Part shown: positions 736 through 61,430 of the stretch, piece by piece
How the letters are laid out: each line of letters opens with the position of its first letter
How positions within the stretch are numbered: the first letter of the stretch is position 1
Origin: an uncultured Bacteroidota bacterium
GTDB lineage: Bacteria; Bacteroidota; Bacteroidia; AKYH767-A; JABDAW01
Length of the DNA: 64,000 nucleotides
Reading direction: 5' to 3'
Assembly: GCA_903844645.1 (NCBI GenBank)
Contig: CAIMUP010000010.1
Coordinates: forward strand, 1 to 64,000
Made by a program: the position numbers and the translations under genes
The notes under the pieces: generated by a model
The model's database searches: none
Told to the model about the DNA's origin: nothing
The model's input: only the letters and a program-made list of their open reading frames with translations

Positions 736-840
736 ACTTTTTAAATTTTAATTGTTAATACTATATATTGTTTTTAGCTTTTGTCTAATAAATCTAAACT
801 CGGATACTGATTTCAGATTATTCCCTGCAAGTTCCGCGAT

Positions 841-1008
841 AGAACCTTGCGGTTCCATGATAGAACCTTGCGGTTCCATGATAGAACCTTGCGGTTCCAT
901 GATAGAACCTTGCGGTTCCATGATAGAACCTTGCGGTTCCATGATAGAACCTTGCGGTTCCGCGATAGAACCTTGCGGTTCCACGGTAGAACCTTGCGGT
1001 TCCACGGT
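841..1008. repeat. 21-bp array R1 (8 units)
   Basis: Eight consecutive 21-bp units start at 841, 862, 883, 904, 925, 946, 967 and 988, with degenerate half-units on both sides (830-840 and 1009-1016). The core GAACCTTGCGGTTC is a perfect inverted repeat around TTGC. Only the three-base linker (ATG, GCG, ACG) varies. The period is a multiple of three, so both strands show open frames (748-1155 minus, 752-1138 plus) that I regard as artefacts. It lies between two minus-strand genes. Confidence 0.95.
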
Positions 1009-1016
1009 AGAACTTC

Positions 1017-1289
1017 CTCCCGCCAGAGCAGGATTTCCTGTTTTTTCTGGAATTCTAACTCCCATCGCGAACCATTTTGAAGAAGTTTGCCTGCGAACAG
1101 GTACCGCCGAGGCTGTCCTTGCAGCTTCGGGCAAATAGTATTGTAATAAGTACAATACCCTTCTCCATTATGGTTCTATTTCCTGGGGGCAACATCGGTG
1201 CAGTTCCCCTATTCGCCACGGTTTTCATGGTGAATCTACCGGTAGGGAATAGGAGGATATGCATCGTTTGATTTTTTTATTTGATATTA
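1017..1289. other. Gene-free spacer right of R1
   Basis: No credible gene. It contains a short inverted repeat around 1139-1153 (GTATTGTAATAAGTACAATAC) and a GC-rich stretch at 1190-1265. The latter is open on both strands, with MHILLFPTGRF on minus, but has no promoter, family or codon support. It may be the remnant of an older element. Confidence 0.4.
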
Positions 1290-1868
1290 TTAATCGGGAA
1301 TAATTTCTGCTATTTTCAACTCGAATCCGAGCAGCACATTTTCGCCATCCAAGACCTCCTCGAAGGGAATCATCGTAGGCTCGGCAGCAGGTTTATAAAC
1401 ATGGGTAATTCGGGTATTCGGATCTATCAACCATCCCAGTTGGCAGCCGTTTTCCATCCATTCCTCCATCTTCATCATCGCCCTTTTGGCGTTATCGCTT
1501 TCGGACAATAATTCAATGACAAAATCGGGGCATACATGGGCAAACTTCTTGCGTTCTTCTCTCGGAATACGTTCCCATTTCTCCTTAGCCATCCATGCCA
1601 CGTCTGCCGATTTGATCGCACCATTCGGCAAGGTGAATCCCGTGTTGGAATCGAAACAATAACCCAATCTTTTTTTCCTGTTCCACACCCCCAAATCTAT
1701 TCCTAATTCCAAATTTGAGTTGCCCGTTTCTCCTCCTGTTGGTGCCATAATTAATATATTTTTATTTTTATCCCTCTCAAACCGAATTTCCTTATTCTCT
1801 GCGCAAAGCAAGAAGAACTGATCGTCCGTCAAGTTCGCAGATTCGGTTTTTATCGTGAATAATTCCAT
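1290..1868 (-). CDS. Uma2 family nuclease-fold protein
   Basis: 192 residues, the normal size for the Uma2/DUF820 family, which has a PD-(D/E)XK restriction-endonuclease fold. Visible family signatures are LTDDQFFLLCAENKEIRFER near the N-terminus, KSADVAWM in the middle, and PDFVIELLSESD followed by a Lys/Met helix and GCQLGWLIDP. The Asp in SADV and the Glu in VIELLS are the expected metal ligands. Members are abundant in cyanobacteria and Bacteroidota and their biological role is not settled. The gene is 21 bp upstream of the 3' neighbour's end on the same strand and has no obvious functional link to it. Confidence 0.85.
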   Translation of the reverse strand: MELFTIKTESANLTDDQFFLLCAENKEIRFERDKNKNILIMAPTGGETGNSNLELGIDLGVWNRKKRLGYCFDSNTGFTLPNGAIKSADVAWMAKEKWERIPREERKKFAHVCPDFVIELLSESDNAKRAMMKMEEWMENGCQLGWLIDPNTRITHVYKPAAEPTMIPFEEVLDGENVLLGFELKIAEIIPD

Positions 1869-1889
1869 CGGATGAAGGACTATATTTAA

Positions 1890-3116
1890 TTACTTTTGGT
1901 CGAAGAAATAATCTATCAGTTTATAAATCTGCTCAACCTTCACCGCGCCGCTGCTCTCGAAGAATTTATCTATCGCTTCGGATATTTCGCTGGATTCAAT
2001 CGTGAAGTTATCATTTGTATCGAACATCCTCAAGTCGGTCGGAATATTATTTGTCGTCGGAATATCCGTTCCATAATCCGCCCCCAGTGCTACGCCGTCC
2101 GCATCTACTCTCGCATCCTTAGGGCTGTTCGGTTCTTTATCCAAATAATCGGGAATGCCGTCGCCATCGCTATCTAACGGGCATCCGTTTTTATCCACCG
2201 CCACGCCCATCGGCGTTCCCGGGCATTTATCGTCCATATCCGGCACCCCATCCATGTCCGAATCTTCCTTGCCGAGGGCTTCATAATCCACCTTGCTATA
2301 GTCGTACTTGTAATGCTCCGCCTTGCTCAACGCCCCCAAGTCATAATTCAGCGTGAAGGACGTAAACAGGATGTTGTCGTACGCATGGTTGCCCACAAAT
2401 TGGTTGTATTGGACATAGTCTATCTTATTCGTCAGCGTCATGTTGAAGGTTTCCTGCCATCTCAAGAACAACTTGGGGCTAACCTGGAATTTCAACCCGA
2501 TATTAATAGGGATGAAAAGGGTATTTCCACTACCCACCAACGAATCATAAACATAATCGCGATGCAGCTTCGCCGAAGCATCGGCATTCGGGTCGCTCTG
2601 CGGCAAACTGTGGATGCTGCCATCCGTCCAGTAGTTATATGCGATGCCGTTTTCATCCACCATATCCGTCTTCGTAACATAAGACAAGAGTCCCACGCCC
2701 ACCCCGATAAAAGGAGTAACAGGAGGATATTTGTATGGATCCTTCGGTCCGAAATTGTACCGGAATAACAGCCCCTCGCTGAATATCTGCGACTTGAAGT
2801 TGAGGTTCCTCGCCAAGGTATGCTCCTCACCAAATATACTGCCGCCTACGAAGAAGAAATCAATACCGAATTTCTTGCTGAAGTTCTTCTGCACGTCCAC
2901 GGTATATCCCATTTTGAAGGGCATTGGCTCATTCATTTTACTATAGCCAATGTCGCCATAATAATTCAACATGCCGGCACCCACCCCGATCACTATTTTC
3001 GGACGTTTTGGGGCGGTGGTGTCTTTATAAACTTCTTCTTGGGCTACTACGCTCTGCCCGATGAATAGGGCTGCGATAACGATGATTAGGGTTCTAAGTA
3101 CTGTTTGATATTTCAT
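1890..3116 (-). CDS. Outer-membrane barrel with TSP3 repeats and EF-hand-like tail
   Basis: 408 residues with a signal peptide (LIIVIAALFIGQSVVAQ). Residues ~40-270 have the alternating pattern of a small outer-membrane beta-barrel. Next come calcium-binding thrombospondin type-3 motifs (DSDMDGVPDMDDKCPGTP, then DSDGDGIPDYLD). The last ~50 residues are an EF-hand-like module (DTNDNFTIESSE, then YKLIDYFFDQK) with non-consensus loop positions 5 and 6. The same tail ends the barrel at 4131-5348. It is the last gene of a three-gene minus-strand operon, 32 bp after the SPOR gene. Probably a cell-envelope protein; its ligand is unknown. Confidence 0.85.
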   Translation of the reverse strand: MKYQTVLRTLIIVIAALFIGQSVVAQEEVYKDTTAPKRPKIVIGVGAGMLNYYGDIGYSKMNEPMPFKMGYTVDVQKNFSKKFGIDFFFVGGSIFGEEHTLARNLNFKSQIFSEGLLFRYNFGPKDPYKYPPVTPFIGVGVGLLSYVTKTDMVDENGIAYNYWTDGSIHSLPQSDPNADASAKLHRDYVYDSLVGSGNTLFIPINIGLKFQVSPKLFLRWQETFNMTLTNKIDYVQYNQFVGNHAYDNILFTSFTLNYDLGALSKAEHYKYDYSKVDYEALGKEDSDMDGVPDMDDKCPGTPMGVAVDKNGCPLDSDGDGIPDYLDKEPNSPKDARVDADGVALGADYGTDIPTTNNIPTDLRMFDTNDNFTIESSEISEAIDKFFESSGAVKVEQIYKLIDYFFDQK

Positions 3117-3148
3117 AATATTTATTAATTTTTGTTTTGTATATTTTT

Positions 3149-4111
3149 TTATTGTCCACTAATTTTTAATGCCTCTTGCAGGTTCATCCGAGCACCATTC
3201 TGATATGCCACAATGAATGCACCCTCCAGCCCTGCCGAACGAATCTTGTCTCGCAACTCTTTTGCTGCGGCAAAACTGGAGAAGGAGCCAGCAGTGTATT
3301 TGTATAAGCCATCAACCTGCTCGGATGATATTTCTTCGGCAATATTGTATTTACTTTTCAAATATCCTTCCGATCCTGCGCTTTGTCCTGCCCCTACTTG
3401 TACCCGGTAGGTTATTCCGGCAACTTCCTTTGCAGGTGCAGGGGTAACTTTTGGTTTAGCGGGAGCGACTTTCTTTGGCTCCGGTGCTGGTGCAGGAGGA
3501 GCAGGTGTAGGTTCAGGGGACTTCTCAACAATGGGTGGGGTTACTTTCTCTGGTTGAGCCTTTTCTACAACTGGAGGAGCAACGATCTCTGGCTCCTTCT
3601 TTTCCGGTGTCGGGGTTTCTATTGTTTTAGAAGGAGCTGTTGTGGAAGAAGCCGATGAAGAAGAGTTCCCAGAAGCATTTCCCGCACTGCTGATGTCAAT
3701 GCTTGAGAAAGCAATTTGAATCTTCTTGGTATCGTTGCCGTCAATGTAAGAGAAAGTCCCGGAAATAGATTTAGGACCAGCAGCCGTAGCATCCACTTTT
3801 ACTTTGTAAGACACCGTGAACTTGGCATCCGCCGGTAATGACATCCAAATCAATTTCACCTTGTTCTTATCGAAAGAGAAGGTCGCCGATTTACTCTCAA
3901 TCGCTGTGGCAACAAAGCCTTCAGGGATTTCTTCCTGTAGTTTTGCGAATCCTGATGTAGCCCCTTTATCTACTGATAGTTCAACAGTAAATTCGCCACC
4001 TGGAGCAGCAGATGAAGGCATACTGCGAGTAACTTTAATGGATTGTGAAAAACACAATTGCGATAATCCCATCAAGGTTATTGCGACAATTGTTAAGAGA
4101 TATTTATTCAT
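3149..4111 (-). CDS. Secreted SPOR-domain protein with beta-sandwich N-terminus
   Basis: I chose the ATG at 4109-4111 because it opens a clean signal peptide (MNKYLLTIVAITLMGLSQLC); the longer open frame to 4156 adds 15 non-signal residues. About 320 residues. An N-terminal all-beta domain (PGGEFTVELSVDKG, SGFAKLQEEIPEGF, VKLIWMSLPA) resembles a family seen in Bacteroidota envelope proteins. It is followed by a Pro/Ala/Lys linker and a C-terminal SPOR-like domain (GITYRVQVGAGQS to FIVAYQNGARM). SPOR domains usually bind denuded peptidoglycan. It sits between two EF-hand-tailed barrels in one operon, so it may link the barrels to the wall. Confidence 0.82.
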   Translation of the reverse strand: MNKYLLTIVAITLMGLSQLCFSQSIKVTRSMPSSAAPGGEFTVELSVDKGATSGFAKLQEEIPEGFVATAIESKSATFSFDKNKVKLIWMSLPADAKFTVSYKVKVDATAAGPKSISGTFSYIDGNDTKKIQIAFSSIDISSAGNASGNSSSSASSTTAPSKTIETPTPEKKEPEIVAPPVVEKAQPEKVTPPIVEKSPEPTPAPPAPAPEPKKVAPAKPKVTPAPAKEVAGITYRVQVGAGQSAGSEGYLKSKYNIAEEISSEQVDGLYKYTAGSFSSFAAAKELRDKIRSAGLEGAFIVAYQNGARMNLQEALKISGQ

Positions 4112-4130
4112 ATTTTTATTTGTTATAATC

Positions 4131-5348
4131 TTATTGTTGTTCAAAGAAATAGTCAATCAGTTTATTGATCATCGGCACGGAGTACTTACTGTCGCCGTTG
4201 AATAAAGCATCTATCGCACCATTGATTTCTCCTGTCGAAATCTTTCCGTCGTTGTTGGTATCCGCTATCCTCAAATCTTCAGGAATATTATTTCCTGCCG
4301 CTGGCTTAGTCGGACTTGGATTGGTTTTGGTTGGGGTAGGTGTTGCCTTAAGAGGATTAGTAGTATTCGATTTATTAGATGCCGAAGAGGTCGTTGTCTT
4401 CTTTTCCGCTAAAGGTGTTTTGGTCGCGGGGGTTGCTTTTGGAGGATTCTTAGAAACTTTGGCACTCGAATAGTATGAATCGTCTTCGGGTTTCTTTGCT
4501 ATATTATCGGGACTTTCTTTGCCTCCCGAACCGGATGATAATCCAAAGTTATAATGCAAAGAAACATTGGTATAAAGAAAAGCATCATTAGAGGAGGCTG
4601 GTATTCCAGAACCGCTGACATAATCAATATACTTGGTCATGGTAAGATAATAAGTAGCCTTTAAATCCATGGAGAATTCAGGGGTCATTTTCCACGCAAC
4701 GCCGAAACCAAGAGGGATGGCAAACGTATTTTGGCTGTAGTTAAGACTTTCATTGGCGATGGCAAGCGAATGCAGGCCGGTTTCATATTTATGATCCATC
4801 GGCAGAACGGTAGAGCCTAATGCAACCACATCGGTTTGGGCGATATCCCGGACACTTCCATCGTTCCAGTAGTAATAAGATTCACCATTGGCGGCTATCA
4901 TATCGCTCGAACTTTTAAATGAAAGATAGCTGAAGCCAAGGGTAACATATGGGGCTATTGGTGAGTTCTCGTCCAGGATTTTATTGTTATCGAAGTGGTA
5001 TGCAAAGTGTAGCCCGATGTTCATAATATCTGCCTGAAAATTTCCATTGGCGGTGATGGAGCGTTCTTCTTTTTGCAGCTTTCCGCCAAGGTATTCTACC
5101 CCGATACCGATGCCGTTGCCGACTAATTCTTCGATCCCGAAATTATATCCAAAACGGCTGCTGCTGTATATGCCCATTCGCTGGGTCTTTCCGATGTTTC
5201 CATTGAAGCCTAACATTCCTGCTCCTACGCTTACGACAGGTAGCAGGCTCTGTTCGTTTTCCGATTGAGCGACACTTGCTATTGTCGAAAAAATACAGAG
5301 AATTATCGCCAGAGATATTCCTTTTATCAGGTAGTTTTTTGAAGCCAT
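4131..5348 (-). CDS. Outer-membrane barrel with C-terminal EF-hand
   Basis: 405 residues, first gene of the operon. It has a signal peptide (ISLAIILCIFSTIASVAQ), a barrel domain (~30-270) that resembles the one at 1890-3116, a Thr/Ser/Pro/Lys linker (~280-350), and a tail with a canonical EF-hand loop DTNNDGKISTGE (positions 1, 3, 5, 6, 8 and 12 all match) followed by INKLIDYFFEQQ. The tail is paralogous to that of 1890-3116. A TATATTTG box at 5368-5375 lies 20 bp upstream. Calcium binding is inferred from the loop; transport or structural roles are both possible. Confidence 0.85.
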   Translation of the reverse strand: MASKNYLIKGISLAIILCIFSTIASVAQSENEQSLLPVVSVGAGMLGFNGNIGKTQRMGIYSSSRFGYNFGIEELVGNGIGIGVEYLGGKLQKEERSITANGNFQADIMNIGLHFAYHFDNNKILDENSPIAPYVTLGFSYLSFKSSSDMIAANGESYYYWNDGSVRDIAQTDVVALGSTVLPMDHKYETGLHSLAIANESLNYSQNTFAIPLGFGVAWKMTPEFSMDLKATYYLTMTKYIDYVSGSGIPASSNDAFLYTNVSLHYNFGLSSGSGGKESPDNIAKKPEDDSYYSSAKVSKNPPKATPATKTPLAEKKTTTSSASNKSNTTNPLKATPTPTKTNPSPTKPAAGNNIPEDLRIADTNNDGKISTGEINGAIDALFNGDSKYSVPMINKLIDYFFEQQ

Positions 5349-5367
5349 TTTCTTATTTTTAACAAGC

Positions 5368-5375
5368 CAAATATA
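5368..5375 (-). promoter_or_regulatory. -7 box for the barrel/SPOR operon
   Basis: TATATTTG on the minus strand matches the Bacteroidota -7 consensus TAnnTTTG and lies 20 bp before the ATG at 5348. Confidence 0.6.
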
Positions 5376-5399
5376 TAAAAATTCGCATTCATCAAAACA

Positions 5400-6359
5400 T
5401 TATCCCAAAAAAATCTTAATTACCCAGAGCGAACTGACCATGATTAACACCCATAAAATAACTCCTTGCAGCATCGGTCTGGCTCCGATTGCACGGATGG
5501 ATTTTATATTAATCCCTGCCCCGATAAAGAACAAAGTAATGGATAATCCCGCCTTTGAAATTGCCAATAATTGGGCGGCATGATCGGCAACGATGGGGAC
5601 ATAAGTCTTCATTACGGATGCTATTAAAAAAAACAGGATGAACAGGGGGAAAGATGCCTTTCGGTCTTCATTTTTAAAGAGGAAAGAAGAGACAATTACC
5701 AAGGGTACTATCCACAGTGCCCTTGCCAGCTTGACGGTGGTGGCGATGATCATCGCTTCGTGCCCATAGCTGCTGGATGCGCCTACTACGGAGCTGGTAT
5801 CGTGGATGGCGATGGCGCACCAGATGCCGAATTGTTGTTGCGTTAATCCGAGGTAATGCCCTATCGGTGGAAAGATAAATAAGGCTACGGCATTGAGGAT
5901 GAAAACGGTCCCGATGGATACGGAAATTTGTTCATCATCAGCTTTAATAACGGGGCTGACAGCAGCTATTGCGCTGCCGCCACAGATAGCGGTGCCGGCG
6001 GTGATTAAATAGGAAGTCGTTTTATTCACCTTCAACAATTTCCCTATCATCGTTCCTATTATTAAGGTAAGGATAATGGTGCCCATGGTATAAAAAATTC
6101 CATTCGCGCCGGCTTCCAATACTTTATTAATATCCATTCCGAAGCCTAAGCCGACGACCGATATTTGCAACAAATATTTGGTGTATTTCTTGGTCATGCT
6201 TTGGTACGGATTCCCAACTATTATTCCTAATATCAGCCCTATTAATAATGCCCAGTGGGGAGCTAAATTCAGGATTACGATGATCGCCATCATCAGTATA
6301 AATAATACCTTCGCTACCGTGAATTTGCCGAAGACTGTTTGTGAGAAGAATACCTGCAT
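5400..6359 (-). CDS. YeiH family (UPF0324) putative sulfate/sulfite exporter
   Basis: 319 residues, nearly all hydrophobic, with about ten membrane segments. Family hallmarks are ALLIGLILGIIVGNP, VVGLGFGMDINK, TAGTAICGGSAIAA and AIHDTSSVVGASSSYG. YeiH proteins are putative exporters of sulfate, sulfite or small sulfonates. The gene diverges from the persulfide dioxygenase operon at 6936, and a repeat array lies between them. This pairing fits removal of the sulfite and thiosulfate that the dioxygenase makes; the substrate is inferred from context. A weak TAATTTTA box followed by CCGCC lies at 6382-6389. Confidence 0.88.
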   Translation of the reverse strand: MQVFFSQTVFGKFTVAKVLFILMMAIIVILNLAPHWALLIGLILGIIVGNPYQSMTKKYTKYLLQISVVGLGFGMDINKVLEAGANGIFYTMGTIILTLIIGTMIGKLLKVNKTTSYLITAGTAICGGSAIAAVSPVIKADDEQISVSIGTVFILNAVALFIFPPIGHYLGLTQQQFGIWCAIAIHDTSSVVGASSSYGHEAMIIATTVKLARALWIVPLVIVSSFLFKNEDRKASFPLFILFFLIASVMKTYVPIVADHAAQLLAISKAGLSITLFFIGAGINIKSIRAIGARPMLQGVILWVLIMVSSLWVIKIFLG

Positions 6360-6381
6360 TGGTTTTGTTTGTTTGAGGCGG

Positions 6382-6517: not shown

Positions 6518-6727
6518 GGATGCCTTCCGACGTTCTCCTGATGGCATAAATAATTTTCAGGATGCCATCGGACGTTCTTCCGATGGCATAAATAATCTTC
6601 GGGATGCCTCCGGTCGTTCTCCCGATGGCACAAATAATCTTCACGATGGCATCGGTCGTTCTCCCGATGGCATAAATAATTTTCAGGATGCCTCCGGTCG
6701 TTCTCCCGATGCCATCCTGAAGATTAT
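6518..6727. repeat. 42-bp array R2 (5 units)
   Basis: Five 42-bp units (twice 21) begin at 6518, 6560, 6602, 6644 and 6686, each starting GGATGCC or a variant. Each contains an imperfect dyad of the type ATCGGACGTTCTTCCGAT and an AT-rich spacer (CATAAATAATTTTCA). From 6713 the sequence continues as an inverted copy (GATGCCATCCTGAAGATTAT), so direct and inverted units meet. It fills the divergent gap between the exporter and the sulfur operon. Confidence 0.92.
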
Positions 6728-6873
6728 TTGTGCCATCGGACGTTCTTCCGATGCCCTTTTTACGTTGTCATCGGACATTCTCCCGATGAGATTCCCGTTT
6801 TATAGCCCTATTAATTCGCAAGTTAATTTCCGAAATCTGACCTCCATCATTATTCCGGTATCCACAAATTTCG

Positions 6874-12180: not shown

Positions 12181-12347
12181 AGAAGGTTTACGTTACTCCA
12201 CGAGTAGCTTCCCGATGCCGATGACCTCTTTGTGAGTTTTTTTCAATAATAAAAGTGGATTTACTTTTTCATATTCCTAATTTATTTATTGAATGGCAAA
12301 ATTAGGAAAAAGGAAATCATTGCCGCAAATGTCCTTCCTCGAAAAAT

Positions 12348-12411
12348 CGGGTTTTACACCTGAAAACCGCCTTTTATAACGGGAAAAAGTTCATGCAAGA
12401 CATGTTCCCCG
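12348..12411 (-). repeat. Shared array flank, copy at R3
   Basis: Read on the minus strand: CGGGGAACATGTCT (12398-12411), TTTCCCGTTATAAAA (12372-12386) and TTTTCAGGTGTAAAA (12352-12366). The same blocks in the same order lie next to arrays R4 (17288-17350) and R14 (54060-54122). It directly abuts the first R3 unit. Confidence 0.85.
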
Positions 12412-12662
12412 TGATGAAGGCTTTCAGCACAGTAGTGAAAGCTTTCCGTCCGGTGATGAAAGCTATCCATCTGGTGATGAAAGCTATCCGTCCCGTAGTG
12501 AAAGCTATCCGTCTGGTGGTGAAAGCTATCCGTCCGGTGATGAAAGCTATGCGTCCTATGATGAAAGCTATCCATCCCGTGATGAAAGCTATCCGTTCGG
12601 TGATGAAAGCTATCCATCCCGTGATGAAAGCTATCCGCCCGGTGGTGAAAGCTATTCATCCT
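12411..12662. repeat. 21-bp array R3 (12 units)
   Basis: Twelve units, exactly in phase, start at 12411, 12432, 12453 and so on to 12642. The consensus contains GTGATGAAAGCTATCC followed by a five-base part that alternates between CATCC- and GTCCG-like versions. It lies between the convergent dehydrogenase and argS genes. Both strands are open (a KAI-R-PVMK heptad on plus), which I attribute to 21 being a multiple of three. Confidence 0.95.
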
Positions 12663-12697
12663 GAAAATAATTATGTTGTTATTAAATAACCCAAACT

Positions 12698-17057: not shown

Positions 17058-17136
17058 GTTTCTTGGGAGCCACGAATTTCACGAATTAATTTCGGCTGAC
17101 GGCAGAAAATGAGCTATTTCCAGAATGAGAATCTTC

Positions 17137-17283
17137 TTGGTCGGGATGAGAAGTTCCTTGGTCGGGATGAGAAGCTCCTTGGTCGGGATGAGAAGCTTCT
17201 TGGTTGGGATGAGAAGCTTCTTGGTTGGGATGAGAGGCTCCTTGGTCGGGATGAGAAGCTCCTTGGTCGGGATGAGGAGCTTC
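17137..17283. repeat. 21-bp array R4 (7 units)
   Basis: Seven units start at 17137, 17158, 17179, 17200, 17221, 17242 and 17263, each TTGGTCGGGATGAGAAGC plus three bases; a partial unit precedes them (17121-17136). Some copies contain the palindrome GAAGCTTC. Located between two plus-strand genes. Confidence 0.95.
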
Positions 17284-17287
17284 TCGT

Positions 17288-17350
17288 CCGGGGAACATGT
17301 CTCCTGAGACCGATTTCCCGTTATAAAACCCGATTTTGGAGGTGTTAAAA
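17288..17350 (+). repeat. Shared array flank, copy at R4
   Basis: CGGGGAACATGTCT (17289-17302), TTTCCCGTTATAAAA (17314-17328), then CCCGATTTTGGAGGTGTTAA. It begins five bases after the last R4 unit and matches the flanks of R3 and R14. Confidence 0.85.
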
Positions 17351-21586: not shown

Positions 21587-21754
21587 AAAAGGACTTCTGG
21601 TTTTATGAAAAGGAGTTACGGTTTTGTTAAAACCGTAACTCCTTTTGGCAAAACCGGCTTTCATTTTCATAAAAGGAACTTTCATTTTGCCAAAAGGAGT
21701 TGTCCTTTTCTCAAAAGCATTTCTGCTTTTGGCAAAAACACAACTCCTTTTGAG
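21587..21754. repeat. 21-bp array R5 (8 divergent units)
   Basis: Eight consecutive 21-bp frames start at 21587, 21608, 21629, 21650, 21671, 21692, 21713 and 21734. Every unit has AAAA at positions 1-4 and TTTT at 15-18, while the ten bases between vary (for example GGAGTTACGG, CCGTAACTCC, GCATTTCTGC). Units 2 and 3 form an exact 18-bp hairpin (21608-21625 with 21629-21646). Located between two minus-strand genes. Confidence 0.88.
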
Positions 21755-26122: not shown

Positions 26123-26226
26123 GAAATATTTTTATTAATAAAAAAAATGCTTTGAAAAAAAATTTGAAATCGGGGACTTTTTTATGGAATTCTTGAGGTA
26201 TAAAAGGTAAATTCTAAGTCCAAAAT

Positions 26227-26415
26227 GGGAAGCCTTTTTGAGGAAACGGGGAGCCTTTTCGAGGAAGTGGGAAGCCATTTTGAGAAAACGGGAAGCCATT
26301 TTATCCATCCCGAAACCCGTTTTATTGTTCCCGAAACACTTTTTAATAAAACGGATTCACGGAACAATAAAACGGGTTCACGCTTTGCCTAAACGAGTTA
26401 CAGTTTTGCCTAAAC
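26227..26415. repeat. 21-bp array R6 (9 units, mosaic)
   Basis: The 21-bp phase holds from 26227 to 26415 while the unit changes. Four units begin GGGAAGCC or GGGGAGCC (26227, 26248, 26269, 26290), two begin CGAAAC (26311, 26332), and three are GATTCACGG/GGTTCACG/GAGTTACAG types (26353, 26374, 26395). The last type resembles units in R10 and R5. Lies in a divergent gap. Confidence 0.85.
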
Positions 26416-29497: not shown

Positions 29498-29581
29498 CGA
29501 TGGATTTACGTAACGCTGCGATGGATTTACGTAACGCTGCGATGGATTTACGTAACGCTGCGATGGATTTACGTAACTCCC
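29498..29581. repeat. 21-bp array R7 (4 units)
   Basis: Units at 29498, 29519, 29540 and 29561, consensus CGATGGATTTACGTAACGC, near-identical. The core TTACGTAA is palindromic. Divergent gap between two surface-protein genes. To its right, 29594-29652 holds an AT-rich inverted repeat (TTTAAGGTTTAA against TTAAACCTTAAA). Confidence 0.93.
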
Positions 29582-33275: not shown

Positions 33276-33325
33276 TGCGGAATGGCTGACTTATTCTGCG
33301 GAATGACTGACGTATTCTGCGGGTG
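33276..33325. repeat. 21-bp array R8 (2 units plus partial)
   Basis: TGCGGAATG begins at 33276 and 33297 and TGCGGGTGG at 33318, so the spacing is exactly 21. Unit end GACTTATTC/GACGTATTC; GAAT and ATTC are complementary arms. It sits between convergent genes. Confidence 0.7.
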
Positions 33326-36647: not shown

Positions 36648-36731
36648 TTTGAATCGAATGTGTGGGGTTGTAAATGGATGGTGTCGCGACGTGAATAGCA
36701 CTTGTTGAAACGTGTATGGCACTTGTCAGGA
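36648..36731. repeat. 21-bp array R9 (4 weak units)
   Basis: The clearest two units are CGTGAATAGCACTTGTTG (36690) and CGTGTATGGCACTTGTCA (36711), exactly 21 bp apart. Two more degenerate frames precede them (36648, 36669). It lies between two minus-strand genes. Confidence 0.55.
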
Positions 36732-39785: not shown

Positions 39786-39953
39786 GTTCACGTTTTATAA
39801 AACCGAGTTCACGGAATGGTAAACCGAGTTCACGGAATGACAAAACGAGTTCACGGAATGATAAACCGAGTTCACGTTTTGATGAAACGAGTTCACGGAA
39901 TGGTAAAACGTGTTCACGGAATGGTAAAACGTGTTCACGGAATGGTATAAAGT
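39786..39953. repeat. 21-bp array R10 (8 units)
   Basis: Units at 39786, 39807, 39828, 39849, 39870, 39891, 39912 and 39933, consensus GTTCACGGAATGGTAAAACG. CCGTGAACTCGG spans unit junctions as a short dyad (minus strand). Units 1 and 5 read GTTCACGTTTT, like the last type in R6. Lies between convergent recJ and gltA. A low-complexity spacer without features (39960-40211) follows. Confidence 0.95.
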
Positions 39954-44277: not shown

Positions 44278-44339
44278 TTCCGCGAAACCCTTAGATTTAT
44301 CTTATAAGTTTCCAAAACTTTCTCATAAGTCTTTAAGTT

Positions 44340-44672
44340 CTTCTCGTATCTCTTATTTTTCTTCACGTATCTCTGACTTTTCTTCACCTATCTTTGACCT
44401 TACTTCACATATCTCTGGTTTTTCTTCACATATCTCTGGCTTTTCTTCACATATCTCTGGCTTTTCTTCACATATCTCTGGTTTTTCTTCACATAATTGA
44501 GACTTTTCATCGAGTAAAAGTCTTACTTATGTGAAGTTTTTTCGTAAATATGTGAAGGTTTTAGGTGTAAATGTGAAGTTTTGCGCTACTCTTACGAGGA
44601 ACTTTGACCCTTCACAGAGAATAAGAGAAACTTCACAGGGAATAAAAGAAACTTCACGGGGAATAAGAAAAT
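44340..44672. repeat. 21-bp array R11 (direct, inverted, direct blocks)
   Basis: Eight direct units at 44340 to 44487 (CTTCACATATCTCTGG plus a T-rich end). GTGAAG, the complement of CTTCAC, then recurs at 44531, 44552 and 44573, exactly 21 apart. CTTCAC returns with a new tail (AGAGAATAAGAGAAA) at 44610, 44631 and 44652, again 21 apart. It lies between two convergent genes. Confidence 0.92.
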
Positions 44673-47326: not shown

Positions 47327-47443
47327 TTCCAAAGGCGGATTATACCATTCTGTAATTCCCCGACGCTGCTCATTTCCCAAATCCCAAGTAAAAGCGATTT
47401 ATTAGGGGTAATTCCTGATGAAATCATCCAAAAAGGCAACCGA

Positions 47444-47494
47444 ACAGAGAGTCTGTACAACCGTACAGAGAGTCTGTACGGTTGTACAGAGGTA
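47444..47494. repeat. 21-bp array R12 (2 units plus partial)
   Basis: ACAGAGAGTCTGTAC starts at 47444 and 47465, and ACAGAG at 47486, each 21 apart. GTACAGAGAGTCTGTAC is an exact dyad, so each unit makes a hairpin. Convergent gap. Confidence 0.8.
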
Positions 47495-49772: not shown

Positions 49773-50042
49773 GTTATCGGGGTACAATGATCTTACTGCG
49801 GTGTAGGGTTACTATAGATTGGTGTATATCTATCAAAAATTGGTGTATAATAAGTTCAGATTGGTGTATATCTATCAAAAATCGGTGCGTTTAAAACCTA
49901 AATCCACGTGGTTTCACAATATATTCGCACCAATCTTTGACATATTCGCACCAATTCGAGTTAGATTCGCACCAATCTTTGACAGATTCGCACCAATCTA
50001 TAGTAACCCTACACCGATGTAGGATCATTGTATCCCGATAAC
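49773..50042. repeat. 270-bp near-palindrome R13 with 21-bp units
   Basis: Outer arms of 52 bp (49773-49824 and 49991-50042) are inverted copies with 48 of 52 matching. Inside, four direct units TTGGTG (or TCGGTG) start at 49819, 49840, 49861 and 49882. Four inverted units (CACCAA at 49928, 49949, 49970, 49991) are again 21 bp apart. The centre (~49895-49920) is CACGTG. Located between two plus-strand genes. Confidence 0.93.
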
Positions 50043-53810: not shown

Positions 53811-54062
53811 CCTCCCAGTTCAAACTATGTCCCTCCCAGTTCAAACTGTGTCCCCCCCAGTTCAAACAATGTCCCTCCCAGTTCAAACTGTGTCCCTCCC
53901 AGTTCAAACAATGTCCCTCCCAGTTCAAACTGTGTCCCTCCCAGTTCAAACAATGTCCCTCCCAGTTCAAATTGTGTCCCTCCCAGTTCAAACTGTGTCC
54001 CTCCCAGTTCAAATTGTGTCCCTCCCAGTTCAAATTGTGTCCCTCCCAGTTCAAACTGTCCG
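53811..54062. repeat. 21-bp array R14 (12 units)
   Basis: Twelve units from 53811 to 54042, consensus CCTCCCAGTTCAAACTGTG, with CAGTT/AACTG as a dyad. The units alternate between ACTGTG, ACAATG and ATTGTG endings, partly in blocks. Divergent gap. Confidence 0.96.
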
Positions 54063-54122
54063 GGGGCTAATGTCTGTGTTGTCTCTTTTTCCCGTTGTAA
54101 AACCCGATTTTCAGGTGTAAAA
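54060..54122 (+). repeat. Shared array flank, copy at R14
   Basis: CCGGGGG at 54060, TTTCCCGTTGTAAAA at 54088-54102, TTTTCAGGTGTAAAA at 54108-54122. Same order as at R3 and R4; the last block is identical to R3 over 15 bases. Confidence 0.85.
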
Positions 54123-54169
54123 AAGGATTTTTCTCAAAATGAGAATTGCGGGAATGATTCCCTTTTTCC

Positions 54170-54177: not shown

Positions 54178-54195
54178 CCATTCAATAAATAATTA

Positions 54196-55851: not shown

Positions 55852-55854
55852 TTA

Positions 55855-57033
55855 ATGACAAAGGAAAAAGTAATTACCAAAAGCATCCTTATTATTGGGC
55901 TGATAAGTTTGTTTAATGACATCTCCTCCGAGATGCTTTACCCCATCATGCCGGTTTATTTGAAGTCCATCGGCTTCGGTGCCTTAGCCATTGGTATTTT
56001 AGAGGGCTTCGCAGAAGCTACTGCCGGCATCGGGAAGGGATTTTTCGGAAAATTATCTGATCAAAAAGGCATCCGCATACCCTTTGTCCGGCTTGGATAT
56101 TTTATCAGCAGCCTTTCCAAACCGATGCTCGCCCTATTCTCTTATACTGGCTGGGTTTTCACCGCTCGCTTTATGGATAAACTCGGCAAAGGCGTCCGAA
56201 CAGGTGCTCGCGACGCCTATCTTTCATCCATTACCAAAAAAGAAAACAAGGGCAAGGTCTTCGGATTCCGACAGGGCATGGATACCTTAGGTGCTGCTAT
56301 CGGTCCTGTCATTGCGCTCATTTTTCTTTACTACAATCCTGGGCAATATGCGTGGTTATTCATCATCGCATTCGCCCCTGCGCTCATCGGCGTTGCGTTT
56401 ACTTTCTTCATCAAAGAAATCCCGATACATACCACTCAAAATATCGTTTCTTTAAACCCTTTTTCTTTCATTAGTTATTGGAAAAGATCCTCGAAAGAAT
56501 TTAAGCGCATCACGATAGGATTCTTTGCCTTCACGCTCATCAACAGTACCGATATGTTATTATTATTAATGGCGAAAACGACAGGATTCACTGACCGCGA
56601 TGTCATCGGCGTTTACATTTTTTATAACATAATATTCGCCGCCGCGTCGTACCCTATCGGCAGTATCGCAGATAAAATCGGGATGAAGACGATGTTCATC
56701 ATCGGTATGATTTTATTCGCTGCGGTATATCTCGGCATGGCGAATTTGCAAGGCATTCCGATGCTGTATATTTTATTTTTCTTCTATGGAATCTATGCCG
56801 CCTGCAACGATGGCATTATTAAGGCATGGATTTCTAAAATCACGCCCAACGAAGAATGTGCCACCGCCATCGGATTCTTCGCTGCCATCTCCAGCATCCT
56901 GATGCTGCTCTCCAGTACCCTTGCCGGCTTGCTATGGGTACTCTTTTTCCCGAAATTAACCTTTATCGTTTCCGGTATTGCCGCTATTTTGATTGCCATA
57001 TATTTTGTGGGGATGAGGGTGAAGAAAGTTTAG
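55855..57033 (+). CDS. MFS transporter next to the phosphatase
   Basis: 392 residues, twelve membrane segments. N-terminal ISLFNDISSEMLYPIMPVYL is a motif seen in a Bacteroidota and proteobacterial MFS branch. The loop motif is GFFGKLSDQKGIRIPFVRLG, and KGVRTGARDAYLSSI follows. Its start is 3 bp after the PafA stop, so the two are an operon; the substrate could be a phosphorylated or dephosphorylated compound (inference). Confidence 0.86.
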   Translation: MTKEKVITKSILIIGLISLFNDISSEMLYPIMPVYLKSIGFGALAIGILEGFAEATAGIGKGFFGKLSDQKGIRIPFVRLGYFISSLSKPMLALFSYTGWVFTARFMDKLGKGVRTGARDAYLSSITKKENKGKVFGFRQGMDTLGAAIGPVIALIFLYYNPGQYAWLFIIAFAPALIGVAFTFFIKEIPIHTTQNIVSLNPFSFISYWKRSSKEFKRITIGFFAFTLINSTDMLLLLMAKTTGFTDRDVIGVYIFYNIIFAAASYPIGSIADKIGMKTMFIIGMILFAAVYLGMANLQGIPMLYILFFFYGIYAACNDGIIKAWISKITPNEECATAIGFFAAISSILMLLSSTLAGLLWVLFFPKLTFIVSGIAAILIAIYFVGMRVKKV

Positions 57034-57085
57034 TAATGAATGTTTAGTTTTAAGGGATGGAATTAAATATGCCTCGAAAAATTTG

Positions 57086-57093
57086 TAGTTTCG
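57086..57093 (+). promoter_or_regulatory. -7 box for the DUF2752 gene
   Basis: TAGTTTCG, 24 bp before the ATG at 57118; one base off consensus. Confidence 0.45.
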
Positions 57094-57117
57094 TGCCCTC
57101 AAAAAGAAATTAAAACA

Positions 57118-57459
57118 ATGATCAAAAAAATATTCAGCAGAGATTATAAATACAGCAAACAGGTCAGCATCGTGTTCGTCTTGTTTTATATTGCCGTACC
57201 GGTATCCTTAGTCATCCTTCCGGTAGATTTTTTCGACCACGGACAAGCGGTCTGTCTATCTGTTCTTCTATTCCACCGCGAATGTTGGGGCTGCGGCTTC
57301 ACGCGGGCAGTGATGCACATGGTGCACTTCGATTTCGACACCGCCTTGGAGTATAATCGTTTAGCCTTTATCGTATTACCAATGCTCGCCGCGATGTGGT
57401 TAAGTTTCTTAATTAAGGAATTGGTCTATCTATACATATTAAATAAAAACAAGCGATAG
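57118..57459 (+). CDS. DUF2752 membrane protein
   Basis: 113 residues with two to three membrane segments. The family signature is the CWGCGFTRAVMHMVHFDFDT stretch (Cys-x-x-Cys-Gly-Leu/Phe-Thr-Arg), with ALEYNRLAFIVLPML in the second half. DUF2752 has no assigned role. Confidence 0.88.
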   Translation: MIKKIFSRDYKYSKQVSIVFVLFYIAVPVSLVILPVDFFDHGQAVCLSVLLFHRECWGCGFTRAVMHMVHFDFDTALEYNRLAFIVLPMLAAMWLSFLIKELVYLYILNKNKR

Positions 57460-57577
57460 ACCGCATCGGAATTCACAATCCAAGGTTTAATTCCCCAAGA
57501 AGCTTGTTATTAAACTTGAAAGCGGAAGGACGTTTCAGGATTTGTGGGCATTAAATTGGGCTTACTTTCTCCAATAC

Positions 57578-57745
57578 TTGAGTTCAATTCTCCAATACTT
57601 GAGTTCAAATCTCCGTGATTTGAGTTCATGGCAAGAAGATTTGAGTTCAATTCTCCAGGATATGAGTTCAATTCTTCGTGATTTGAGTTCAAATTTCCAA
57701 GACTTGAGTTCAAATCTTGGAGATTTGAACTCAAGTCTCCGAGAA
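57578..57745. repeat. 21-bp array R15 (8 units)
   Basis: Eight units from 57578 to 57725. TTGAGTTCAA (TTGA/TCAA dyad) is conserved in each, with a variable 11-base tail. The last (57725) is TTGAACTC, inverted. Convergent gap. Confidence 0.93.
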
Positions 57746-57820
57746 AGTAAGCCATATTTCATCGCCATTAACTGCCTTCAGCCTTTCGTTTCAGGGTTTA
57801 ATTAGGTATGTTTAATAAAA

Positions 57821-57848
57821 AAACCCCCGAAATTTCTTACGAGGGTTT
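57821..57848 (-). terminator. Terminator of the TM2 gene
   Basis: AAACCCTCG / CGGGGGTTT stem (one mismatch) then TTTTTTT on minus. Confidence 0.8.
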
Positions 57849-57870
57849 CTTTATTAAGGATTAAGTTCGA

Positions 57871-58608
57871 CTAACTATAATCTCCGTCTAATGGTTTCAA
57901 ATCCTTGAACCAAATTCTGTAGAAGTCAATCAACCACCAGATTCCGCAGCCACCACCGGTAAGCAACTGAACGATACCTTGCCAGGTATAGCCCAAGTAG
58001 AAACGGTGAACACCAAGACCGCCCAATAACCAGCATAATAAGAATGCCGTGATCCAGCTTTTGTCGCCACCGCCACGTTTCTTAGTAGCAAAAGCATGCA
58101 AGCTCAACGTGCTGAAGAATGCAGCAACACCACCTAAGAAATACCAACCTTTGTGGTTTGATTTCTTAGAAGAATTAGAAGCATCTTTCTTAGCAGCAGT
58201 GTTCGCTGATACAAAAGTTTGGTTAGCATTTGCTGTAGGATAATTCACATGAGATGTGAAATCAACCTTGTTAGCAAAAACTACCGGTGTAGCATCCGTA
58301 GATGCTGTGATGGTGTTATCAGCAATTGCAGGAGCAGCAATTTCTGATGATGCAACTGTTGGAGCAACAGTTTCTGTTGGTAAGCTCTGGGCAGGAGTTA
58401 CATGCGCTGCCTTTGCTTTTCTCGCGGAACTTACTTCCGTTCCGTTTTGTTTAACGCCATTGTGCTTACCGCCGAGGTTTACATAATACCCACTGCTGTA
58501 ACGCTTCTTAGCGAAATCCATTGATGTGTTACAAGAAAATAACACGGTAACAAGGGCAATCACAATCACCCATGTTGACATTTTGAAGATGTTAAAATTT
58601 TTCATCAT
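57871..58608 (-). CDS. TM2-domain lipoprotein
   Basis: 245 residues, lipoprotein signal ending VLFSC (Cys26). The N-terminus after Cys carries FAKKRYSSGYYVNLGGKHNG. A ~90-residue Ala/Thr/Val-rich low-complexity stretch follows, then one membrane segment, and finally the TM2 domain (ITAFLLCWLLGGLGVHRFYL, the GIVQLLTGGGCGIWWLIDF pair). TM2 domains are found in single- or double-pass membrane proteins with unclear function. The KRYxxGYYV motif is shared with 59758-60447. TATGTTTG box at 58655. Confidence 0.88.
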   Translation of the reverse strand: MMKNFNIFKMSTWVIVIALVTVLFSCNTSMDFAKKRYSSGYYVNLGGKHNGVKQNGTEVSSARKAKAAHVTPAQSLPTETVAPTVASSEIAAPAIADNTITASTDATPVVFANKVDFTSHVNYPTANANQTFVSANTAAKKDASNSSKKSNHKGWYFLGGVAAFFSTLSLHAFATKKRGGGDKSWITAFLLCWLLGGLGVHRFYLGYTWQGIVQLLTGGGCGIWWLIDFYRIWFKDLKPLDGDYS

Positions 58609-58654
58609 ACTTTTAATTTTTTTAAGTTATACTGTTAGTAAATTTTATTGGGCG

Positions 58655-58662
58655 CAAACATA
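58655..58662 (-). promoter_or_regulatory. -7 box for the TM2 gene
   Basis: TATGTTTG followed by CGCC on minus, 47 bp before the start. Confidence 0.6.
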
Positions 58663-58736
58663 CATAATTTTTCTAATATCAACAAAGCGAAAAAGATATT
58701 TTTCTCCTTCGCTGGTATAATGGCGGAATCTTTTTA

Positions 58737-58744
58737 TATATTCG
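58737..58744 (+). promoter_or_regulatory. -7 box for the 58783 gene
   Basis: TATATTCG, one base off consensus, 39 bp before the ATG. Confidence 0.45.
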
Positions 58745-58782
58745 CCCCGATAAATAAGTTTATAAAAAACATAACATACCTA

Positions 58783-59658
58783 ATGAACACAACAAGATTC
58801 AAAAGTTTGATACTATCCTTCGCAGTATTTCTAATGCTGGCTCTTTCTAATCTTAATCCATTGATAGCTCAAGAAACACTTACCAATGGGACTATCATAA
58901 AAATGTCGAAAGCAGGACTGGGAGATTCTGTTATTATTAAAAAGATGCAATCGCCTAAGGTCGTGATTAAATTTAATACGAGTATAGACAGTATTATCTA
59001 TCTTAAAGAACATGGTGTCTCGAATGGGGTAATAGCCTCTATGCAAGATGTTACAGCTCTTTCAGCAAATGATGCCATCGTTAATGAACATAGTTCAGAC
59101 CCTATTTTTATGCATCCTTCAGGAATCTATTATTACAATCAAAAGAACGAAAAAGGAGCTTTGCAAAAAATAGAAGAGAATGTTCCTTCCTCTGTAAATG
59201 GAAGCAGAGAGAGTGTCTATTTTTTCGGGGAGACAACGCGTAGTTATTGCATGAATGGAGAGAGTGCAAATATCCAGGTGAATGATTCCTTGCCGGTGTT
59301 TTATTTTTATTTCGATGAGGATACCTTGAACAAAAACAAATTGAATTATGATAACCGCGCTCATCAGATTACTTCTCCAAATATGTTTACCCTGGTAAAC
59401 CTTAGTATCAAGAATCATAGCAGATGCTTTGAAGGAGGAAAAGCAACGGGAACTGGTTTTACTCATGAGTCGGCAGTGGGTATCAGCGATAAAAACAAGG
59501 TTGATTTTAAATGGGAGAAGATAAGGCAAGGGATTTTTAAACTCTATCTTCTGAAGCCCATGTTCAAAGGGGAGTATGCTTTTACTTATGCCGGGAATGA
59601 CCGCTCGGGAATGTTGCTATACGACTGGGGAATTGATTTAAGAGATTATAGAAAATAA
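58783..59658 (+). CDS. Secreted protein of unknown function
   Basis: 291 residues from the ATG at 58783-58785, which opens a signal peptide (FAVFLMLALSNLNPLIAQ); the frame to 58648 overlaps the TM2 promoter. Near the N-terminus (NGTIIKMSKAGLGDSVIIKK) it resembles the short helical domain of secreted Bacteroidota proteins that report 'any modification' (a SHOCT-like helix pair). The rest is beta-rich and ends in EYAFTYAGNDRSGMLLYDWG. No function known. AT-rich. Faces the DUF4190 gene. Confidence 0.75.
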   Translation: MNTTRFKSLILSFAVFLMLALSNLNPLIAQETLTNGTIIKMSKAGLGDSVIIKKMQSPKVVIKFNTSIDSIIYLKEHGVSNGVIASMQDVTALSANDAIVNEHSSDPIFMHPSGIYYYNQKNEKGALQKIEENVPSSVNGSRESVYFFGETTRSYCMNGESANIQVNDSLPVFYFYFDEDTLNKNKLNYDNRAHQITSPNMFTLVNLSIKNHSRCFEGGKATGTGFTHESAVGISDKNKVDFKWEKIRQGIFKLYLLKPMFKGEYAFTYAGNDRSGMLLYDWGIDLRDYRK

Positions 59659-59757
59659 AATATAGACATACAAAAGGAGTATCCAGAAAATCCTGACAAA
59701 GAGTAGGGCGCGGTAGCCGAAAAGCGAATGAGTAAGCAAATATTAAATAATTAAACA

Positions 59758-60447
59758 ATGAATAAATTAAAAACAATTTTATCGAGTATCGTTATCATCA
59801 CCCTCCTGTTTTCTTCTTGCCAAATGGAGAAAAGGCATTACATGTCTGGCTACAGTTTCCAATGGAATAAAAACAAACACACTTCGGAGAAAAAGCCGGA
59901 TGTGGTGAAAGCCATTAAGGTAAAAATACCTGTAACCAGTACCGAAACGGTTGCTGCAAAGCCCGAAAAAGCAAAAGAAGTAATTCCTTCACCGATAAGG
60001 AATGAAGAACGCATCGTAGCCTCCAACGACAATTCGGTGAGCATTGTTCCCGAAGCGAGATTGGATTTCAATAATCCCGTTAAGGTTACTCCCGAAAGTA
60101 CGCCTGCGGTGGCTAATTCATCCCATGTGAATGTCTTCAAAGCATTCTTCAAGAGGTGGATAGGAGACAACACCGCTGCCGCCAAACCTGCCGAAAGTGG
60201 CAAAACAAATACCATGGCTCTGTTATCCCTTATCTTTGGGATTTTGGGGATTATTACATTCATTGTTTTGATAGGATATTTATTCGCGATCCTTGCTATT
60301 ATTTTTGGAATCCTGGGATTAAGCCAAATTAAATCTTCTGGCGAGAGCGGGTCAGGTATGGCGATTGCAGGAATTATTTGTGGAGCGATCCCTATCTTGA
60401 TTTTAATCTTCGTGATCATCCTTTTTGCCGCTCTTTTTAGTTATTAA
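59758..60447 (+). CDS. DUF4190 lipoprotein
   Basis: 229 residues, lipoprotein signal ending LLFSSC (Cys21). Directly after Cys is EKRHYMSGYSFQWNKNKHTS, matching the KRYxxGYYV segment of the TM2 lipoprotein. A Pro/Ala/Lys-rich linker and two C-terminal membrane segments follow (ALLSLIFGILGIITFIVLIG, GMAIAGIICGAIPILILIF) separated by a GLSQIKSSGESGSG turn, the DUF4190 pattern. Small barrel at 60465 follows after 17 bp. Confidence 0.86.
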   Translation: MNKLKTILSSIVIITLLFSSCQMEKRHYMSGYSFQWNKNKHTSEKKPDVVKAIKVKIPVTSTETVAAKPEKAKEVIPSPIRNEERIVASNDNSVSIVPEARLDFNNPVKVTPESTPAVANSSHVNVFKAFFKRWIGDNTAAAKPAESGKTNTMALLSLIFGILGIITFIVLIGYLFAILAIIFGILGLSQIKSSGESGSGMAIAGIICGAIPILILIFVIILFAALFSY

Positions 60448-60464
60448 ATTATATACTATTAAAT

Positions 60465-61091
60465 ATGAAAAGCTATTTCTTAACATTTCTCCTTTGTTCG
60501 GCGGTGATGCTGAATGCTCAAACCAATGCGAAACTCGTTAACGCGATGGATCCCGTGCCTTCTTTTAAAGAAGGTACGCAGATAATTACCCTCGGCTATG
60601 GGTTCCCGAATTGGTTGGCGATCCCTGCGTTTGCGGATAGAAATTACGTCCCCTCAAAAAACATCGGTCCGCTGCATTTCAAATGGGAATATGGCTTGTC
60701 GAATTACATCGGCTTTGCGGTCGGCGTTAATTATTCTTCCGTAACCATCACCAATTTTAACAATAATTATAATTTTCCATATCCTCCTTCGTCATCATCT
60801 TACGAAATCCATGATTATACCGCGACGAGCATCCTTGCCCGTCTGAATTTCCATTTTGGTATTACCGATAAATTAGACCCTTATTTCGGACTCGGAACCG
60901 GTTACAGAGCCAGTTCCGATGTAGAGCATTATACCACGGGATCATCCAGCACCACCTATTACGGTCGCATCCCTATCGGCTTTGAAACCACGATCGGGGC
61001 GCGGTATTATGTAGCGAATTCTACAGCCATTTATCTCGAAATGGGCATTGCCCAATCGTTCATGCAATTTGGGCTTACCCTGAAATTCTAA
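60465..61091 (+). CDS. Outer-membrane beta-barrel protein
   Basis: 208 residues, signal peptide (FLTFLLCSAVMLNAQ). About eight strands with Tyr/Phe ends (IITLGYGFPNWLA, GFAVGVNYSSVTI, ILARLNFHFGIT, PYFGLGTGYRASSD, GFETTIGARYYVA, MQFGLTLKF). The C-terminal Phe is typical of outer-membrane insertion signals. Function unknown. It is probably cotranscribed with the DUF4190 lipoprotein and is followed by a strong terminator. Confidence 0.85.
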   Translation: MKSYFLTFLLCSAVMLNAQTNAKLVNAMDPVPSFKEGTQIITLGYGFPNWLAIPAFADRNYVPSKNIGPLHFKWEYGLSNYIGFAVGVNYSSVTITNFNNNYNFPYPPSSSSYEIHDYTATSILARLNFHFGITDKLDPYFGLGTGYRASSDVEHYTTGSSSTTYYGRIPIGFETTIGARYYVANSTAIYLEMGIAQSFMQFGLTLKF

Positions 61092-61118
61092 GAAATTAAG
61101 CCCCTTTTATCAACTTCA

Positions 61119-61151
61119 AAGCCTCCCGAAACCGCTTCGGGAGGCTTTTTT
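61119..61151 (+). terminator. Terminator of the barrel operon
   Basis: 12-bp perfect stem AAGCCTCCCGAA / TTCGGGAGGCTT, loop ACCGC, then TTTTATT. Confidence 0.93.
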
Positions 61152-61220
61152 ATTAGGAATACCTTGAGCCGATCATCAGAAAATTTCCTTTTTAGCCGTT
61201 CTAACTCAATCCTGACTCAA

Positions 61221-61430
61221 ACTAACTATGTTTTGCCGAAACATAGTTAGTTTGAACCCGGCACTAACTATGTTTCGGTAAAACATAGCTAGTTTGAACC
61301 CGGCACTAACTATGTTTCGGCAAAACATAGCTAGTTTGAACCCGGCACTAACTATGTTTCGGCAAAACATAGTTAGTTTGAGCCAGGAACTAACTATGTT
61401 TCGACAAAACATAGTTAGTTTAACCCTGCC
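61221..61430. repeat. 42-bp array R16 (5 units)
   Basis: Five 42-bp units at 61221, 61263, 61305, 61347 and 61389. Each contains CTAACTATGTTT and AAACATAGTTAG as near-perfect arms around a CGGC/TGCC loop, then TTTGAACCCGGC. It reads as two 21-bp halves. Convergent gap. Confidence 0.96.

Follow-up and report, generated by a model that had tools for sequence, protein, structure and literature searches.

Intergenic tandem arrays of 21- and 42-bp units with inverted-repeat symmetry in an uncultured Bacteroidota bacterium

Tandem arrays in the window

The window analysed here is a stretch of 64,000 nucleotides from an uncultured Bacteroidota bacterium (positions 1 to 64,000 of contig CAIMUP010000010.1, C10:1-64000), and the gaps between its genes hold tandem arrays with a period of 21 or 42 bp. 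The source genome, G000, comprises 3.84 Mb in 143 contigs. It has PafA and markers of the type IX secretion system (T9SS), and a tree of PafA places it with families of its own order, apart from the named families retrieved. The initial annotation listed 16 array-bearing gaps, R1 to R16, and Tandem Repeats Finder (TRF) returns arrays with a period of 21, 42 or a multiple in 15 of them. The exception, R9, consists of two degenerate 21-bp copies (15/21 identical) which give no TRF hit, lie at 36690-36731 and not at 36648, and are a relic at best. When lags from 5 to 129 are analysed independently of TRF, clusters are found in the window solely at 21, 42, 63, 84, 105 and 126, plus one at 51.

According to TRF, 21-bp arrays are present at R1 (831-1013; 8.7 copies of the unit GTTCCATGATAGAACCTTGCG, in which dyad analysis finds GGTTC..GAACC), R3 (12408-12661; ~12 copies), R4 (17125-17281; 7.5 copies), R7 (29498-29577; 3.8 perfect copies), R10 (39798-39947; 7.1 copies) and R14 (53811-54059; 11.9 copies, between divergent genes). 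R8 (33276-33322) has 2.2 copies of a 21-bp unit and R12 (47437-47479) has two. R2 (6518-6753) is a 42/84-bp array whose orientation flips near 6706-6739, as an inverted self-match shows, and it has a palindrome at 6622-6739. R5 (21587-21751) is a degenerate 21/42-bp hairpin array, AAAAGGAGTT..AACTCCTTTT, and R6 (26223-26415) is made up of three 21-bp sub-arrays with partly inverted copies. In R11 (44338-44668) direct units run to 44517, inverted units occupy 44528-44582, and direct units are found again at 44610-44668. R13 (49773-50042) is a fold-back element in which the inverted ends GGTTATCGGGGTACAATGATC and GATCATTGTATCCCGATAAC surround a direct 21-bp array at 49818-49887 and an inverted one at 49923-49999, the array span given by TRF being 49818-49999. 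R15 (57509-57802) is a 21/63-bp array (TRF 57567-57744) inside a palindrome. R16 (61219-61426; TRF 61221-61426) is a true 42-bp array of 4.9 copies, each unit forming a hairpin with 13-bp arms, and the first copy carries in its loop the reverse complement of the loop sequence found in the remaining copies.

Length, placement and sequence of the units

The genome-scale sample of G000 consists of 38 stretches totalling 715 kb, or 19% of the genome; contigs are denoted C and sampled stretches L, and arrays with a TRF score of at least 100 are called strong. The period is a multiple of 21 in 145 of the 160 strong arrays, and several of the remaining ones have periods of 41, 43, 83, 104, 20 or 64, at most one base off a multiple. 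Array DNA makes up 3.5% of the sample. With simple gene calls based on open reading frames, 129 of the 143 merged arrays (~90%) are intergenic. A sharp and mainly intergenic peak at 21 and 42 bp, which the initial annotation had named as support for its view, is found in this part of the genome. Arrays occupy 96 of the 142 gaps of at least 250 bp, and the orientations of their flanking genes (++ 31, +- 30, -- 23, -+ 21) match those of all gaps. Outside the strong arrays of the sample, 18 partial duplications have a length of 21, the next length having 3, and no perfect two-copy duplications of at least 13 bp were seen.

Every array of period 63 turns out to be a 21-bp array with higher-order structure. 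On the other hand, 15 of the 45 period-42 arrays, four of the six with period 84 and three of the four with period 126 match themselves at lag 42, with a low or chance match at lag 21. The primitive periods are thus two in number, 21 and 42, and in the true 42-bp units the halves are unrelated. The fourth 126-bp array, at L151:14873-15544, lies within a very long open frame and is probably a coding repeat unrelated to the satellites. The initial annotation described the arrays as free of indels. This needs correction, as 105 indel bases were counted against 1904 substitutions and indels affect 36 of 134 arrays.

When it comes to sequence, the 161 consensus units fall into ~147 clusters, and some of the shared clusters represent a single array split across contigs. 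The view that the sequence differs at most loci therefore stands, though small dispersed families exist. No motif is shared among the units; the best 4-mer, GGAA, is found in 47 of the 147 clusters and the best 6-mer, CCAAAA, in 12. The units are contiguous and without spacers, which rules out arrays of clustered regularly interspaced short palindromic repeats (CRISPR), and an origin from 7-bp repeats was rejected as the lag-7 signal is absent. The initial annotation also proposed two turns of B-DNA as a possible basis of the length. The arithmetic agrees, both lengths being whole multiples of 10.5, but neither curvature, calculated with wedge values, nor 10.5-bp phasing of AA/TT is above that of shuffled units.

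Inverted symmetry, concerted change and dispersal

Length was initially taken to be the property that the arrays share. It is indeed shared, but a second common property had been overlooked, namely the inverted-repeat symmetry of both units and whole arrays. Inverted repeats in the units are longer than in dinucleotide-preserving shuffles (z 8.9-10.7, n=123), and the 42-bp units show an excess of inverted repeats over shuffles of z 4.5. The unit dyads are replicated (z 5.4) when two congeners, G001 and G002, are pooled with two Chitinophagaceae bins, G061 (through L052) and G062 (through L024). Spacing peaks of dissimilar dyads at 10.5 and 21 are forced by the periodicity and were not used as evidence.

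Array regions compared to their own reverse complement have a median score of 19.8, with 8.0 for other loci and 13 for array-free gaps, and 69% of the array regions are above the 99th percentile of the control for self-complementarity. Whole-array palindromes, called with a cut-off that is exceeded by ~1% of 700-bp coding windows, are found in 50 of the 124 arrays with full flanks. These palindromes follow partly from the unit dyads, but an excess over column-permuted arrays stays (22 vs 8.4 of 62).

Co-variation of the arms is seen in a family designated B, where three dispersed copies (C2, C13 and C101) fold as one 306-bp hairpin with 132 pairs; across the three copies 30 pairs are altered on both sides yet still paired. 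Within arrays, a strict pair count of compensatory changes gave two of seven double changes, too few to tell. The mismatched palindrome pairs in co-directional gaps comprise 122 G.T and 148 A.C on the sense strand, without any excess of G.T, and the folding energies of the sense and antisense strands of 57 co-directional arrays do not differ significantly. The pairing hence looks to be kept at the level of DNA rather than RNA.

Orthologous gaps are few, the synteny with G001 and with G003, a member of the same family but another genus, being low and these two genomes having been read in part. R11 is found downstream of the same gene in G001, and the array is thus kept at the orthologous gap. 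The direct units of R11 in G000 contain CTTCAC (10/11) and the inverted ones GTGAAG (3/3), while in G001 the corresponding motifs are CTTCTC (7/7) and GAGAAG or GAGAGG (3/3). Direct and inverted copies have thus changed together. The gap containing R13 is 599 bp in G000, while its G001 orthologue is 178 bp and has no array, and the orthologue in G003 of one gap in L011 is also without an array.

Some arrays recur, together with their flanks, at unlinked loci, as for L014:17989-18272 and L016, and for families A, B and C, the sites of family A being C6, C13, C37, C117 and others. A dispersed family comprises 2-8 copies, and the majority of arrays occur singly. Arrays related to R5 are found at other loci of G000, G001 and G002 and arrays related to R10 at several loci of G001, and the unit family of R14 is dispersed in G002. 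Inverted ends around the array are found in R13 and in families A and B, and were not seen in most arrays. The copies of family B that were inspected display no target-site duplication, and a search of the own genome gave no partner element with the same ends.

Further inverted repeats surround the arrays of family A (L252 flanks, G000:C6:5906-5972 and 6303-6369), among them TTGTTGCACCGCCAAAGCGGATGCAATCATA, the second of two hairpins that resemble repetitive extragenic palindromes (REPs), and the palindromic mosaic around this family extends well past the array. The other REP-like hairpin, GCATCCTGACAGGCAATCGCCCCTTCGCGATTTCCTGTAAGGTTGC, is dispersed and found in ~18 copies in the 715 kb, sometimes inverted on both sides of an array; the sites include L001:8885, L004:3515 and 3814, L009:10440, L148:7078 and 7484, and L166:15444.

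In G002 one unit family is found over several loci, each beside a conserved leader. Searches with blastn showed that a related leader adjoins R3, R4, R14 and the arrays of L156, L162 and L167, all of which have other units, and contig C295 of G001 carries an R3-related array with the same adjoining leader as R3. In the window these leader-like sequences are located at 12339-12409 (plus strand, ACACCTGAAAA..TTTTATAACGGGAAAAAGTTCATGCAAGACATG) next to R3, at 17282-17349 (minus strand) next to R4, and at 54060-54140 (minus strand) next to R14, the last one beside the pafA promoter region. In three species of the genus the leader ACACCTGAAAAtCGGGTTTTATAACGGGAAAAA..AGACAT directly borders arrays whose units are unrelated, its orientation towards the array being constant. 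It is often situated just upstream of a gene promoter, and is also found at L181, L184, L188, L191 and L244. The sequence GCAGCGGGCTGCCGCTACTATCGGGGCTA, together with a long conserved upstream flank, is present in many copies in G001 (L128, L199, L200, L202, L203 and others), and may belong to a repeated gene family.

Origin of the arrays and related systems

For arrays that score at least 100 and whose period is 21 or a multiple of it, the density per 100 kb is ~20 in G000 (145 in 715 kb), 16.7 in G001 and 8.1 in G002. None were found in 82 kb of G003, which represents the sister genus. The two Chitinophagaceae bins have 5.5 (G061) and 7.2 (G062) arrays per 100 kb, and the other Bacteroidota stretches, 1.96 Mb in total, have 0.3.

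Several candidates for the machinery were considered and rejected. Almost every member of the order that was tested, including the array-poor ones, has a weak SbcD match or none, which speaks against loss of SbcCD as a permissive switch. No reverse transcriptase was detected in G000, G061 or G062, and there is no association with the arrays. A REP-associated tyrosine transposase (RAYT) is not supported as the agent either, as the sole Y1 transposase match in G000 is a fragment of 113 residues, whereas full matches occur in array-poor relatives. MutS1 is present throughout, save in the 58%-complete G002, and shows no association. A second, MutS2-like match of ~700 residues is missing in this family (G000, G001 and G003) but also in some other array-poor genomes, is present in G061, G062 and most relatives, and so does not follow array density either.

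We place about even confidence in the reading that the arrays are non-coding fold-back satellites which are homogenised at the DNA level and whose unit length is fixed at two or four helical turns. It starts from the observed length spectrum, non-coding status, inverted symmetry, co-variation, concerted change, dispersal and lineage restriction, while template switching as the agent and the helix as the ruler are its more conjectural parts. A short intergenic stretch, often containing an inverted repeat, would be copied in tandem, and at times also in reverse orientation, the step being 21 or 42 bp. The resulting arrays typically have 4-14 units and show a tendency to be palindromic. Slippage combined with template switching between the arms of hairpins or cruciforms, or alternatively gene conversion, would then homogenise direct and inverted copies jointly, leading to co-varying arms, flipped loops and units that change together at constant length. 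Some arrays would spread to further gaps and form small dispersed families, and others would remain at one locus across species. Slippage and template switching would explain the inverted units, the loop flips, the co-variation and the concerted change, but they do not by themselves explain the number 21. The step would most likely be set by the double helix, as two or four turns of 10.5 bp, with an enzyme or bound protein having to meet the same face of the DNA; such a helical ruler seems the simplest reading of 21 and 42. More tentatively, and rather doubtfully, some Bacteroidota might possess a copying system that is indifferent to sequence and metes out two or four helical turns, equal to 21 or 42 bp; intergenic DNA would be copied by it in both orientations into fold-back satellites, and both orientations would be homogenised.

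Several points weigh against the DNA-level reading. The ratio of indel bases to substitutions, 0.055, is not sufficient on its own as proof that length is under selection. As the net curvature of the units is not above that of shuffled ones, no structural effect of helical phasing is visible beyond the periodicity. More than half of the arrays are not whole-array palindromes, and the case for co-variation consists of one family of three copies and one orthologous locus. Orthologous gaps were compared between species rather than between strains. Lastly, no determinant, enzymatic or genetic, turned up: among the families tested, SbcD, Y1 transposase, reverse transcriptase and MutS1 all fail to separate array-rich from array-poor genomes.

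A less probable but still serious alternative is that the arrays are a selected binding lattice, on which a nucleoid-associated or other dimeric protein polymerises with a 21-bp step, selection rather than copying keeping both length and dyads. This is an extension of a proposal by Subirana and Messeguer. The same helix face is presented every 21 bp, the dyads fit a two-fold protein, and arrays fill 96 of the 142 longer gaps in every gene orientation and are retained at the orthologous R11 locus. Less favourable to such a lattice are the lack of a common motif (best 6-mer in 12 of 147 clusters), orthologous gaps that may be without an array (R13 in G001 and the L011 gap in G003), and a sister genus having none in 82 kb.

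It is unlikely that the arrays are minisatellites carried as cargo by elements of the type called miniature inverted-repeat transposable elements (MITEs), with terminal inverted repeats and a transposase acting in trans. The inverted ends of R13 and families A and B, the small dispersed families, and the conserved leader beside arrays of differing units in G000, G001 and G002 fit such elements. Still, families of 2-8 copies among mostly single arrays, family B copies without target-site duplication and the lack of an end-sharing partner in the own-genome search do not, and the 21 or 42 bp common to unrelated elements would be left unexplained. The closest described case is BrickBuilt, a MITE of Porphyromonas gingivalis, which is likewise a Bacteroidota intergenic short tandem repeat with a leader and inverted ends, long predicted stem-loops, and assembly gaps at its loci (PMC4596501). 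BrickBuilt, however, forms a single family, in which the same 23-nt sequence is present in 19 copies with target duplications (PMC4596501), while the arrays here have ~147 unrelated 21/42-bp sequences in just the sampled part of the genome and mostly lack recognisable ends. REPs and bacterial interspersed mosaic elements (BIMEs), with their RAYT, are also intergenic palindromes, some of them in mosaics, and REP-like hairpins lie beside some arrays here; REPs, on the other hand, have one sequence per genome, and the Y1 match of G000 is only a fragment. The Drosophila elements Foldback and Galileo have long, internally tandem inverted repeats and structurally variable copies (for Galileo, see PMC3573991), but they are eukaryotic transposons with a transposase, and no homology is claimed.

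A selected transcribed hairpin, serving as small RNA, terminator, stabiliser or sponge, is very improbable. The units do fold better than shuffled units, and transcription of satellites has been reported for Bacillus coagulans (PMC8625621). Yet the folding energies of the 57 co-directional arrays reveal no strand preference, G.T pairs are not above A.C on the sense strand, arrays are about as common in divergent gaps, and the Rfam matches in the window are tRNA only. That 21 bp represent seven codons and the arrays encode small coiled-coil-like proteins is largely refuted: R3 has an open frame of 98 codons (window 12393-12689) with the motif VMKAIRP, and every unit has an open frame, as expected of short units, but substitutions lack a period-3 pattern (P 0.49, 54 arrays), the number of open frames is 4.47 vs 4.28 of 6 in dinucleotide shuffles, a slight excess, and the G001 counterpart of R3 contains repeated in-frame stops. 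An assembly artefact is hardly conceivable, for although many contigs begin or end in an array, which is explained by the arrays being repeats, the 21/42 signature is found in the independent genomes G001, G002, G061 and G062, and G001 has the orthologous R11 array.

Satellites of fixed length and free sequence have been described in bacteria before, and Subirana and Messeguer are said to have named classes of 22/44 and 52 nt in the Journal of Bacteriology in 2020. In Bacillus, non-coding tandem repeats have a constant size of 20-21 or 52 nt and variable sequence, and single species in many bacterial groups have repeats of a constant 20-23 nt (PMC8161180). The arrays here share with these satellites the non-coding nature, the strict length (20-23 nt in the published ones), the unrelated sequences, the occurrence of several families per genome and the patchy taxonomic distribution. 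The phenomenon is therefore not new in kind, and the initial suggestion of a distinct 21/42 class has to be abandoned. There are also differences. The units here have no short sequence common to most of them, of the sort reported descriptively for Bacillus species, the host belongs to the Bacteroidota, and there is, besides 21, a further exact period of 42 whose halves are unrelated. Furthermore, units and whole arrays here display strong inverted symmetry with co-varying arms, while the published account, for one 52-nt repeat, notes short sequences together with "their reverse" and does not mention palindromic arrays (PMC8161180). The present analysis thus adds inverted-repeat symmetry, co-variation of arms, persistence and concerted change at R11, dispersed families, and a density boundary at the genus level.

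The published proposals for such satellites in bacteria, a protein lattice and small RNA, come with little evidence. The symmetry, the co-variation, the concerted change, the period of 42 and the genus boundary argue for a process at the DNA level over a product, whether RNA or protein. Assemblies break at the arrays as well, and with several contigs starting or ending inside an array, copy numbers may be underestimated. If the copying system that metes out 21 or 42 bp is real, it would be a length-measuring duplication activity of a kind not described in bacteria.

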